From Ruegeria profundi (GTDB lineage Bacteria > Pseudomonadota > Alphaproteobacteria > Rhodobacterales > Rhodobacteraceae), in NCBI RefSeq assembly GCF_001507545.1, contig NZ_LQBP01000003.1:310001-374000 (forward strand): a stretch of 64,000 bases of DNA, in the 5' to 3' direction. Below are positions 40,429-43,469 of this stretch, piece after piece. Each line of letters opens with the position of its first letter. The first letter of the stretch is position 1. The notes below the pieces were generated by a model, which saw only the letters and a list, made by a program, of their open reading frames with translations, searched no databases and was not told where the DNA came from. The translations under genes were made by a program, and so were the position numbers.

Positions 40429-40731
40429 GCGCATCTAATAGCCATGTGCTGCGGTGATGTCGACCTGACGCAGGATCAGAATTTCATCGGACTTGCCACA
40501 TGCGGCGATGTGCGATTTCATGAGTTCGTGTCGTAATGGGGTTCGGATGTCAAAGAGTAGGTGTATCGGCGAAATATCCGGCAACAGAAAAAAGAAAGCG
40601 TCGCTTGGGTTAAACAGCAAGACAACAAGGACCTTCAGACTCTGCTTGATAGACGAAGGTGCCAGTAATCAGAAAGTAACTGCGACACTAGAGAACGACT
40701 ACCTTGATACTTGGAAAAAAGGTCGCTCGTT
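40429..40731. other. Gene-free stretch upstream of the CHAD-ParA-CYTH unit
   Basis: About 300 bases with no convincing gene; a short plus-strand frame (40493-40735) has no family likeness and no ribosome-binding site. Promoters for the tfoX-C gene and the CHAD operon should lie here. I looked for a Pho box and saw no convincing one. Confidence 0.5.
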
Positions 40732-42246
40732 ATGAAGCAGACAAGTGGTTTCTTTGTCCTTCCGGGTCGATTTGATGTAAACAAACTCGCTGGTGAGCTG
40801 AAAGGTTTGACCCCGGTGTTCGACGCGCCGACAACTGCCTGCGTGTTCAACCTGCTGGACTGCCATGATCAGTCATTGCGGGCAGAAGGGCGGTTATTGC
40901 TTGAGATCAACGGCAAGTTGCACCTGCTGCAAAGCGACGGCGAGGTGTTGGTTCAAGACAGCGGCAAAGCAAGATTTGTGCAGGATTTGCCAGAAGGTCC
41001 GGTGCGTGACGCCTTGGCTGGATTTCCCAAGCTGCGCGCGTTGATGAGCATCGGGACCGGCACGATGGAGCTCGGCACCTACAAGGTGCTGGACGACCTG
41101 CAAAAGACACAAGTTCGGGGCAGTGTCTTTTCGCTAACCTCGGAGAAAGGACAGGTCGCGCTTGTGCATGTTCAGCCTATGCGCGGCTACGACCGGGCCT
41201 TTCAATCCGTCTGTTCGACGTTGCAGAGCATCACGGCGGGAACGTCTGGTCTCGAGCCTGTGTTTCAAACCCTTTTGCGAGACAGCATTCCCTATAACGC
41301 CAAGCCCGAGGTTCAACTGGGCACGCAGGAGCCGTCGATCGAAGTGGCCGTGGATATTATCCGTACTTTTCTGGCCGTTGCACGCCAGAATGAAGCGGGG
41401 GTCATTGCTGATATCGACACTGAATTCCTGCACGATTATCGCGTTTCGCTGCGGAGAATCCGGTCTGTTCTGAGCCTGTTCAAAGGCGTGTTTTCTCCAA
41501 AACAGACAGACGCGTTGAAACGTGAATTCTCGGACCTGATGGCGCCAACCGGGCGTGTGCGGGATTTGGATGTCTATCTTTTGGAGAAAGACATCTACTT
41601 CAATCTGATACCGCCCAATCTTCATCCGGGCGTGCAAGCCATGTTTGAGCAATTCGAAAAGGAAAGGACAAAAGCCCTTACAAGCCTGTCCAAACGCTTT
41701 CGAAGCGCGACTTACGAACGACAGATGAACGATCTTTCAAAGTTGTTTTCTGGTACCAAGGGGTTGGAACCGGGCCCAAATGCGAAACGCGGTGCCTATG
41801 ACTACGCCTGTGCGCTGATTTGGAAGCGGTATCGCAAGGTGTGCAAACTGGCGCGCAGCATCACTCCTGACACCCCGGATGAGATCGTGCATGACCTGCG
41901 GATCGATTGCAAAAAACTGCGATACTTGATGGAGTTCTTTGCCCCTCTGTTCGACAAAGGTGATTTCAAAACGCTCATCAAACCACTGAAAAAGCTTCAG
42001 GATAACCTTGGCCTGTTCAACGACTACTCGGTCCAGCAAGAAGCGTTGCATGCGTTTGTTGCGGCCCAAAGCAACGCGCAGGGTCGCGCGAATGCTCAGC
42101 TTGCCATGTCCGTCGGTGGCTTGATTGCCGTGCTGGACCAGCGCCAAAAAGCCGAGCGTGAGCGCGTGATCGCCAATTTCCAACATTTCGACAGCCCGGA
42201 CATCCAGGACCTGTTCCGAACCCTGTTTCACCATAAGGAGGACTGA
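40732..42246 (+). CDS. CHAD-domain protein with CYTH-like N-terminus (polyphosphate-binding candidate)
   Basis: The 504-residue protein ends in a CHAD domain (about 200-495). The conserved histidine helices are visible: FLHDYRVSLRRIRSVLSLF and VHDLRIDCKKLRYLMEFF. CHAD domains are known to bind polyphosphate and target proteins to polyphosphate granules. The first 150 residues look like an eroded CYTH fold: LLDCHDQSLRAEGRLLLEI parallels the usual YLDTPD...LR..G..LR, but most phosphate-binding Arg/Lys are gone, so catalysis is unlikely. The start is the ATG following AAAAAAGG at 9 bases; a TTG seven codons earlier is less likely. The ParA gene begins 3 bases after the stop, and a CYTH gene follows. 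Confidence 0.88.
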   Translation: MKQTSGFFVLPGRFDVNKLAGELKGLTPVFDAPTTACVFNLLDCHDQSLRAEGRLLLEINGKLHLLQSDGEVLVQDSGKARFVQDLPEGPVRDALAGFPKLRALMSIGTGTMELGTYKVLDDLQKTQVRGSVFSLTSEKGQVALVHVQPMRGYDRAFQSVCSTLQSITAGTSGLEPVFQTLLRDSIPYNAKPEVQLGTQEPSIEVAVDIIRTFLAVARQNEAGVIADIDTEFLHDYRVSLRRIRSVLSLFKGVFSPKQTDALKREFSDLMAPTGRVRDLDVYLLEKDIYFNLIPPNLHPGVQAMFEQFEKERTKALTSLSKRFRSATYERQMNDLSKLFSGTKGLEPGPNAKRGAYDYACALIWKRYRKVCKLARSITPDTPDEIVHDLRIDCKKLRYLMEFFAPLFDKGDFKTLIKPLKKLQDNLGLFNDYSVQQEALHAFVAAQSNAQGRANAQLAMSVGGLIAVLDQRQKAERERVIANFQHFDSPDIQDLFRTLFHHKED

Positions 42247-42249
42247 GGC

Positions 42250-43005
42250 GTGAAGATCATTGCCTGCTACAGCAACAAGGGCGGTGTGGGTAAAACCGCA
42301 ACCTCGGTAAACCTGGCCTACGCCTATGCGCAAGCAGGGTTCAAAGTGCTGCTATGCGATCTTGATCCACAAGGGGCGTCTGGATTCTATTTTCGGGTGA
42401 AGCCCTCCAAGAAACTGACAGACGCCCGGTTTTTCGAGGACGTGCAGCGTTTTACCAAATCGATCCGGGCCAGTGATTTTGAAGGCTTGGACGTACTGCC
42501 TGCGAACCTGACTTTTCGCGATTTTGACGTGTTCCTCTCGCGGATGCGGAACAAACGATCACGGTTGAAAAAAGCGCTTGTTTCAGCGGGCAGCGACTAT
42601 GACGTTATCATACTGGACTGCCCACCAAACTTTTCTACCTTGTCCGAGAATATCTTCAAGGCTGCCGATTTGATCGTTGTACCCGTTATCCCTACGACGC
42701 TTTCTGAAAGAACGCTTGAGCAATTGGTCAGTTTCTTCGACGAACAAAAGTTGCCCAAGAAAAAGATAAAGGCGTTCTTCTCGATGGTGCAGCGGCGAAA
42801 GACTTTGCACCTTGAGACGATGGAAAAGATGCGAAAGCTATACAAAAAACGGTTTCTTCAAACAGAAGTACCATTTGCAGCGGATATCGAGCGGATGGGG
42901 CAAAATCGCGCCCCGGTCAGCATCTATGCCGGCCGCAGCGTGGCGAACACCGCCTATCAGGCGTTGTTTGATGAACTGGAAAACGGAGTGGTTTCAACCA
43001 AATGA
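42250..43005 (+). CDS. ParA/MinD-family ATPase
   Basis: The 251-residue ATPase has the deviant Walker A KGGVGKTATS (residues 10-19), the DLDPQGASGF motif and the Walker B-like VIILDCPPNFSTLSE. There is no N-terminal helix-turn-helix and no C-terminal MinD amphipathic tail, so it is a small cargo-positioning type (as in ParA, McdA or PpfA). It uses GTG as start, with AAGGAGGA 8 bases upstream. No ParB or plasmid functions are near, which argues against DNA partitioning. Sandwiched between CHAD and CYTH genes, it may position a polyphosphate body using the CHAD protein as adaptor. That is inference. Confidence 0.9.
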   Translation: MKIIACYSNKGGVGKTATSVNLAYAYAQAGFKVLLCDLDPQGASGFYFRVKPSKKLTDARFFEDVQRFTKSIRASDFEGLDVLPANLTFRDFDVFLSRMRNKRSRLKKALVSAGSDYDVIILDCPPNFSTLSENIFKAADLIVVPVIPTTLSERTLEQLVSFFDEQKLPKKKIKAFFSMVQRRKTLHLETMEKMRKLYKKRFLQTEVPFAADIERMGQNRAPVSIYAGRSVANTAYQALFDELENGVVSTK

Positions 43006-43469
43006 GTACGGAGATTGAGCGCAAGTTTCTGGTGGCAAAGTTGCCGGATCTGAGCGGCGCAGACAAAGCCGTCGTACGTCAGGGCTATTTGACTGCACCA
43101 GACGATTCAACGGAACTGCGCCTGCGTCAGAAGAACGATAAGTTCTTCCTGACCCTCAAGGGCGGCGGCACGATGGTGCGGGTTGAGCGTGAGGCCGAAA
43201 TCTCCTCTGAGCAATTTGAAACCTTCTGGCCCGAGACAGCGGGCCGCAGGGTGGAAAAGGAGCGCTATACCGGTCAGTTGCCGGACGGGCGCGTGTATGA
43301 ATTGGATGTGTTTCTTGGGGACTTGGCCCCGCTTCGATTGGTAGAGGTGGAGTTTCAAACTGAGGCAGAGGCCAGTGCCTACACGCCCCCTGATTGGTTT
43401 GGGGCCGATGTCACCGCGGATAAACGCTACAAGAACAAGACGATGGCAACTAGCGGCGTACCTGCCTAA
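43002..43469 (+). CDS. CYTH-domain phosphatase-like protein (triphosphate tunnel enzyme)
   Basis: The 155-residue protein is a complete CYTH domain. The N-terminal EIERKF gives the E-x-E-x-K signature; ELRLRQ, LTLKG, RVEREAEI, KERY, ELDVFLG and LVEVEF supply the basic and acidic residues of the tunnel, and ADKRYKN ends it. Such enzymes hydrolyse inorganic triphosphate or related substrates with Mg2+/Mn2+; adenylate cyclase and thiamine triphosphatase are family alternatives. It overlaps the ParA gene by four bases (ATGA) and overlaps the convergent kinase gene by four bases, leaving no room for a terminator. Confidence 0.92.
   Translation: MSTEIERKFLVAKLPDLSGADKAVVRQGYLTAPDDSTELRLRQKNDKFFLTLKGGGTMVRVEREAEISSEQFETFWPETAGRRVEKERYTGQLPDGRVYELDVFLGDLAPLRLVEVEFQTEAEASAYTPPDWFGADVTADKRYKNKTMATSGVPA

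Follow-up and report, generated by a model that had tools for sequence, protein, structure and literature searches.

A conserved CHAD-ParA gene pair in Ruegeria and other proteobacteria, a candidate system for positioning polyphosphate bodies

We analyzed a 64,000-nucleotide stretch of Ruegeria profundi DNA (contig NZ_LQBP01000003.1, positions 310,001 to 374,000; hereafter the window, G000:C3:310001-374000 in our genome set), which comes from a Ruegeria-like genome and whose nearest loci are those of Ruegeria. The window carries an operon for a CHAD protein, a ParA-type ATPase, and a CYTH enzyme, and the first two of these genes form a pair that recurs across proteobacteria. We put at about even the chance that this operon is a ParA-driven system by which polyphosphate bodies are positioned or inherited, the CHAD protein serving as adaptor. 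The arrangement suggests, and does not prove, that these bacteria invest energy in spacing or sharing out the polyphosphate that they store.

Conservation of the CHAD-ParA pair

The three genes lie on one strand, with the CHAD stop and the ParA start 3 bases apart and the ParA and CYTH genes overlapping by 4 bases. A sequence-only reading of this DNA had described this layout, and the coordinates and Pfam families confirm it (Table 1). A scan of genome contigs for ParA yielded 131 relatives, of which the best 80 were analyzed and the other 51 left out. A CHAD gene lies directly upstream of ParA on the same strand in all 80 loci (split over two frames in L034, cut by a contig end in L070), and in 63 of them a CYTH gene follows ParA on that strand. 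The sequence-only reading had named a neighborhood survey as a check and confinement to this strain as a way to fail it; the survey excludes such confinement, and the 80 upstream CHAD genes rule out a strain-specific accident. Its view of the trio as a unit stands for CHAD and ParA, which are the operon core, and not for CYTH, which is optional; the 17 loci without CYTH include two short contigs (L069 and L080).

The 80 loci belong to 24 named genera, Enemella being doubtful, and to unnamed metagenome-assembled genomes (MAGs). They span alpha-, beta-, and gammaproteobacteria and include Alcaligenaceae, Colwellia, Neiella, and one Desulfobulbaceae MAG; 27 are Ruegeria, hence fewer independent cases. 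The CHAD-ParA junction is a 4-base overlap in 34 of the 80 loci and a 3-base gap in 27. The locus labeled Enemella evansiae (L044), a species that we take to be an actinobacterium, carries an operon of alphaproteobacterial type, and its assembly is perhaps mislabeled or mixed.

An independent sample of the order, comprising 149 genomes, yielded 18 ParA matches (E ≤1e-50) in 17 genomes, and 16 of the 18 matches adjoin a CHAD gene by coordinates. The same genomes hold 31 CHAD matches; 18 score above 180 bits, including all 16 ParA neighbors, and none of the 13 weaker ones adjoins such a ParA. ParA matches also occur in 10 plasmid records, six of them from Paracoccus (65–69% identity). CHAD is upstream of ParA in all three Paracoccus plasmids examined, and was not found in the distant plasmid matches examined (Pontibacter, Halomonas, and Marinobacter).

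ParA ATPase

The middle gene encodes a small ParA-type ATPase (251 amino acids), as had been read from the letters. The protein matches AAA_31 with 134.4 bits, above the Pfam cut-off, and the BcsQ and MipZ models also score above theirs. The KGGxGKT motif with its signature lysine (K10-T16), Walker A' (D37/D39-P-Q), and Walker B (D123-C-P-P) are invariant in an 18-row alignment: the motifs of a deviant Walker A ATPase are intact. Matches to PDB sequences number 51, the best being 8ray (E 1e-24), with Soj/ParA chains among the best and McdA at E 5e-5. The protein is basic (isoelectric point 9.6). The 18-row alignment gives no sign of a MinD-type C-terminal membrane helix, and the C-terminus is unconserved.

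CHAD protein

The CHAD protein matches the CHAD family with 210.8 bits over residues 209–439 (curated Pfam cut-off 25.6) and the PDB entries 3e0s and 6qv7 (E 5e-49 and 6e-49, respectively). In its AlphaFold model (504 residues, 28 alignment rows; pLDDT 89.5, pTM 0.84), the C-terminal half has the long CHAD fold of the Chlorobium tepidum protein CtCHAD (6qv7 and 6qva; TM 0.93–0.94 by target length). Six residues (H234, R237, R241, R277, R397, and Y398) align by hand count with H253, R256, R260, R296, R418, and Y419 of CtCHAD, and all six are invariant in the 28 rows. Mutation of these CtCHAD residues weakened polyphosphate binding (PMC6537752), and from their conservation we infer that the operon protein probably binds polyphosphate as well.

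Pfam did not detect CYTH in the CHAD protein. In the model, the N-terminal half matches the TTM enzymes 5a65, 2gfg, and 3sy3 moderately (Foldseek; E 1e-4 to 8e-4, TM 0.44–0.50 by target length, root-mean-square deviation (rmsd) 6–7), which upholds the label CYTH-like/CHAD given to this protein earlier. The catalytic ExExK motif is missing in all 79 loci in which the N-terminus is covered (two of 81 are cut by contig ends). By model and motif, this half appears to be a catalytically dead CYTH (TTM) fold. An active CYTH within the CHAD protein, as in an active CYTH-CHAD fusion of the YgiF type, is rejected on the ground of the missing motif. Full-length YgiF (5a60) matches the model with E 1e-8 but an rmsd of 21.7 (Foldseek), and the two halves are therefore arranged differently from those of YgiF.

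CYTH enzyme

The separate CYTH enzyme is intact, as had been stated: it matches the CYTH family with 33.2 bits, above the Pfam cut-off, and carries ExExK as EIERK. The motif is kept in 65 of the 67 CYTH genes of loci L001-L081. Two solved structures match it closely, 3typ (E 3e-53) and 2fbl (E 7e-53); the latter is named NE1496, which we take to be the triphosphatase NeuTTM of Nitrosomonas europaea. The operon CYTH is an active-looking enzyme of the tripolyphosphatase type. NeuTTM is listed as an inorganic triphosphatase (PMC8233210).

RHH gene and upstream repeats

The inventory of three genes in the sequence-only reading proved incomplete. In many loci, a gene for a ~60-residue protein with the ribbon-helix-helix (RHH) pattern and a basic tail lies directly upstream of CHAD (KKNTSLRLDxKTLKALKIRAIEEDTSVQKIIExLxxxYL in relatives), and this fourth gene and its operator belong to the operon in many relatives; both are decayed in the window. 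A hidden Markov model (HMM) built from 10 clean copies found a match in 54 of the 96 loci with sufficient upstream sequence, and 48 matches exceed 60 bits (L088 and L132 are one plasmid region). Pfam RHH_1 is above its cut-off in three of eight scanned ~60-amino acid relatives and below it in the other five, and the ParG model stays below its cut-off on the RHH relatives (best 19.2 bits vs 21.4). The copy in the window scores 28.7 bits against the HMM and has no Pfam match.

Repeats centered on TGACGTCA precede the RHH gene in relatives. The exact TGACGTCA core occurs within 400 nucleotides upstream of CHAD in 44 of 48 loci that have a clean RHH gene vs 3 of 48 that do not (Fisher 1e-18, kinship uncorrected), and in 66 of 1920 random windows. 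No exact core is present at the operator site of the window. This co-occurrence points to the repeats as a putative operator of the RHH protein. A wider operator regulon was tried as a candidate and rejected: across 12 genomes, TGAYRTMATGACGTCAT with ≤2 mismatches gave 27 matches and the control gave 4, and the operon sites were recognized only in G139 and G054. A second RHH-like family is found upstream of some CHAD-ParA operons, perhaps replacing the small RHH protein (Table 1); RHH_9 is below its cut-off in the member at L086.

Among 28 Ruegeria loci, the RHH gene is clean in eight and lost or decayed in 20, while CHAD, ParA, and CYTH are full length by aligned stretch in all 28. Median dN/dS values in Ruegeria (0.06 for ParA, 0.09–0.13 for CHAD, and 0.06–0.07 for CYTH; rough values, with dS saturated) suggest that all three genes evolve under purifying selection. 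Because the three genes persist at full length where the RHH gene is gone, the RHH protein is best read as a dispensable autoregulator, and we take the CHAD protein rather than the RHH protein as the partner of ParA.

The opposite assignment, in which the RHH protein is the true ParA partner like ParG or omega, the two together bind the TGACGTCA array as a centromere, and the CHAD protein is a passenger or ties polyphosphate to DNA by way of this complex, appears to us quite improbable. A basic-tailed RHH protein and repeats before the operon do resemble the omega/delta system, and plasmid RHH ParBs both autoregulate and activate ParA (PMC9499535). The tie between TGACGTCA and clean RHH genes and the carriage of the operon by Paracoccus plasmids agree with this assignment too. 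It fits poorly with the 20 Ruegeria loci in which ParA, CHAD, and CYTH outlast the RHH gene, with the 26 of 68 other loci examined in which no RHH gene was found, and with the ParG model falling under its cut-off.

ParA phylogeny and transfer

In a ParA tree of 59 rows, the window-type proteins form a clade (100/100) of 27 rows, 26 of which are CHAD-adjacent; the exception is L082. CHAD adjacency recurs in deeper ParA lines of the same tree (L095, L096, and L100/L104), and as a label on the tree it requires 4 changes vs 20.1 in shuffles. The plasmid rows L131 and L134 are labeled "no CHAD" in the tree; CHAD was not found there across the record start. Alcaligenaceae rows nest inside the alphaproteobacteria, a placement that suggests transfer between proteobacterial groups.

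Such mobility could mean that the genes are merely co-transcribed neighbors that do not act jointly, with ParA acquired by a mobile operon by chance and kept by hitchhiking. The patchy occurrence (17 of the 149 genomes sampled), the plasmid copies, and the nested betaproteobacterial rows fit this explanation. We regard it as very unlikely, since gene order and coupling are kept across alpha-, beta-, and gammaproteobacteria to the Desulfobulbaceae MAG, adjacency extends to deeper ParA lines, and all three genes bear signs of purifying selection.

Polyphosphate genes near the operon

Genes of polyphosphate or phosphate metabolism are found in the vicinity of the operon in some relatives. The gene ppk1 adjoins it in L072 and lies ~3 kb from it in L066 and L078, both of them Colwellia, and ppk2 is near it in L071. 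Among the 99 rows searched, 13 distinct loci have a NUDIX gene immediately behind the operon; a histidine-phosphatase (SixA-like) gene follows ParA in L096, and pstB-phoU-phoB are upstream of the operon on the Paracoccus marcusii plasmid pCP157_03. Together with the six conserved contact residues, these neighbors give partial support to the connection with polyphosphate that had been proposed from the sequence.

Proposed mechanism and its assessment

ParA/MinD ATPases are linked to their cargos by partner proteins (PMC10241942), and CHAD proteins have been reported to localize to granules (PMC6537752). In the system that we infer here, the CHAD half of the adaptor would coat a polyphosphate granule, and the nucleoid would carry ATP-bound ParA dimers. 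The CHAD protein would bind ParA, perhaps through its dead CYTH-like domain, and trigger ATP hydrolysis. Granules would then follow ParA gradients over the nucleoid and so become spaced or split between daughters. The CYTH enzyme would take off tripolyphosphate ends, and the RHH protein, where present, would repress its own operon. In its boldest form, in which a portable RHH-CHAD-ParA-CYTH(-NUDIX) operon, distributed across several proteobacterial groups and plasmids, would be the first ATP-driven machine for polyphosphate granule positioning and inheritance and the dead CYTH domain would be the ParA dock of the coat protein, the proposal is tentative, and we rate it somewhat short of an even chance.

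Several observations weigh against polyphosphate positioning by CHAD and ParA. The contact between the two proteins is putative, and the AlphaFold model of ParA was poor (pLDDT 66) and was not used. A long disordered basic N-terminal tail, as used by RHH ParBs, is not seen in the AlphaFold model of the CHAD protein. In G027, a genome of the same genus as the window, ParA is reduced by an internal deletion to a 130-amino acid remnant beside intact CHAD and CYTH (L122, G027:C11), a natural loss of ParA.

Two ParAs have no CHAD neighbor (L082 at G000:C1 and L085 at G110:C30). The former (G000:C1:274895-275635) belongs to the same clade as the operon ParA and makes the window's genome the only one among the 149 with two ParA matches. 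No CHAD or CYTH was found in the 12 kb around it, and in the tree it groups with the ParA of another genus (L086). It is directly downstream of what its sequence led us to take for a gyrA-like gene.

A wider sample of 398 genomes of the phylum holds 68 with ParA (E ≤1e-40). Of the 30 best phylum-wide loci, the window included, seven have CHAD upstream and 23 are without it in flanks of ≤1.5 kb. These 23 form a sister set from other proteobacteria (L097-L099, L101-L103, and L105-L121), many members of which adjoin genes that we presume to be truA-like and RnfH-like. We do not claim that the orphan ParAs act on CHAD. Co-occurrence across the phylum was rejected as support: CHAD is present in 57 of the 68 ParA-bearing genomes vs 145 of the 330 others (odds ratio 6.6), and flagellin, a gene without known link, scores even higher (66 of 68 vs 264 of 330, counted by eye; Fisher; odds ratio 8.3). 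The association is thus not specific and was not used as evidence.

Lastly, PPK1 was not found in the window's genome and in eight other genomes of its genus, among the 149 searched, and 10 of the 17 genomes of the order that carry the ParA lack it. PPK2 is present in 147 of the 149, with 3–5 matches in each of nine genomes of the window's genus and five in the window's genome itself, where polyphosphate would accordingly rest on PPK2.

The missing PPK1 is equally compatible with a metabolic and a spatial role, and a metabolic role is the core of another explanation, a regulatory switch without movement. ParA, in the manner of BcsQ, FleN, or MinD, would sense ATP or polyphosphate through CHAD and control CYTH or polyphosphate kinases. 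The tight coupling of the CHAD and ParA genes, which an enzyme gene often accompanies, would suit such a switch, as would the BcsQ and MipZ models scoring above their cut-offs and the stimulation of the YgiF triphosphatase by its CHAD domain (PMC6537752). That CHAD and ParA are kept in the 17 loci without CYTH (two of them short contigs), and that ParA is basic and has Soj/ParA chains among its best PDB matches, speaks against it, and we judge the switch unlikely while taking it seriously.

We consider it highly improbable that ParA segregates or tethers some other cargo, such as a nucleoid region or polyhydroxybutyrate granules, with CHAD bringing in polyphosphate secondarily. The organization of Pseudomonas aeruginosa polyphosphate granules on the nucleoid by the DNA-binding AlgP (PMC9239181, PMC13052382) would accord with it. 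No other cargo gene was recognized beside the operon in a search limited to a few families, which counts weakly against this explanation. The even chance given at the outset stays with the positioning or inheritance of polyphosphate bodies through the CHAD adaptor.

Features of the locus

The operon is flanked by NDK, by a TfoX_C-like gene on the opposite strand, and by convergent genes for a histidine kinase, a response regulator, and a trypsin/PDZ protease (Pfam). Promoter-like and terminator-like sites are not above chance level. In four other loci (L017, L031, L083, and L084), a gene on the same strand ends shortly upstream of CHAD; by its sequence we presume it to be cytochrome P450-like.

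Table 1. Coordinates of the operon and associated features (window positions, except the last row, which gives positions within the named loci)
Feature	Position	Strand	Description and basis
Decayed operator, at the site of the TGACGTCA-centered repeats of relatives	40515-40540	.	Reads atttcatgagttcgtgtcgtaatggg, exact TGACGTCA absent; aligned by eye
Diverged or decayed small RHH gene	40547-40735	+	62 amino acids; stop overlaps CHAD start by 4 bases; HMM 28.7 bits
CHAD protein gene	40732-42246	+	504 amino acids; presumed polyphosphate-binding cargo adaptor; Pfam CHAD, PDB 3e0s/6qv7, AlphaFold/Foldseek
N-terminal domain of CHAD protein, ~residues 1-200	40732-41331	+	CYTH/TTM-like fold without catalytic ExExK; Foldseek, motif count
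CHAD domain, residues 209-439	41356-42048	+	Six residues match polyphosphate contacts of Chlorobium CHAD; Pfam, alignment
Shine-Dalgarno-like AAGGAGG for ParA, within 3' end of CHAD gene	42235-42241	+	Sequence
ParA-type deviant Walker A ATPase gene	42250-43005	+	251 amino acids, GTG start; AAA_31, PDB matches, Walker motifs
CYTH/TTM enzyme gene	43002-43469	+	155 amino acids, intact ExExK (EIERK); Pfam CYTH, 3typ/2fbl
Second RHH-like family members	L086 3213-3566; L047 1800-2186; L080 1309-1728; L078 1524-1736		

Comparison with known systems

It is already known that CHAD proteins occur on granules, that CYTH and CHAD can be fused in one protein, and that polyphosphate gene clusters may include CHAD, and the removal of a CHAD protein in Ralstonia, or of ygiF, gave no apparent phenotype (PMC6537752); ygiF has been tied to copper resistance (PMC10892726). 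The words polyphosphate and CHAD are absent from the main text of a survey of ParA/MinD cargos (PMC10241942). A 2025 review, in its available text, names AlgP for granule organization and states that the proteins placing granules in Caulobacter are not identified (PMC13052382). In the open-licence literature searched, we found no statement of polyphosphate granules being positioned by a ParA; no search was aimed by name at the RHH gene, its operator, or the dead CYTH domain. The conserved ParA-CHAD pair offers a defined candidate that could be deleted in genera open to culture, Ruegeria and Paracoccus among them; if the proposal is true, it would add a new cargo to the ParA/MinD list and give CHAD proteins a cell-biological role.

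The earlier reading knew of no description of an ATPase gene between CHAD and CYTH. Adjacency of CHAD and parA, together with ppk, is in fact printed for Acidithiobacillus (PMC10892726, PMC6416229), and a positioning interpretation is absent from the available text of those reports. The Acidithiobacillus folD-ppk-parA-CHAD cluster is like the present operon in that parA is conservedly grouped with a CHAD gene and ppk1. It differs in that its CHAD protein is a CYTH-CHAD protein described as a possible adenylate cyclase, and in that no RHH gene or separate CYTH is reported in the same available text.

CtCHAD, solved in complex with polyphosphate (6qva), shares with the operon protein the long CHAD domain (34% identity) and the contact residues; in the available text of its description (PMC6537752), ParA is not mentioned beside it. 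NE1496 (2fbl/3typ) is close to the operon CYTH (E 7e-53), which differs in being encoded with CHAD and ParA. AlgP shares the presumed cargo and a nucleoid scaffold, whereas it is a histone-like tether, its ATP dependence listed as unknown in the available text of the review (PMC13052382).

McdAB, which positions carboxysomes, is alike in having a small deviant Walker A ATPase gene adjoining the gene of a presumed cargo-associated protein, and in having a cargo other than DNA. The present system differs in its presumed polyphosphate cargo, its dead-CYTH/CHAD partner, and its weak match to McdA (E 5e-5). None of the operon proteins matched the McdB family, the presence of an McdB model in the libraries being unchecked. 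The plasmid systems pSM19035 delta/omega and ParF/ParG likewise combine a ParA, a small basic-tailed RHH protein, and a repeat operator before the operon, whereas here a CHAD gene intervenes and many ParA-CHAD loci are without an RHH gene.

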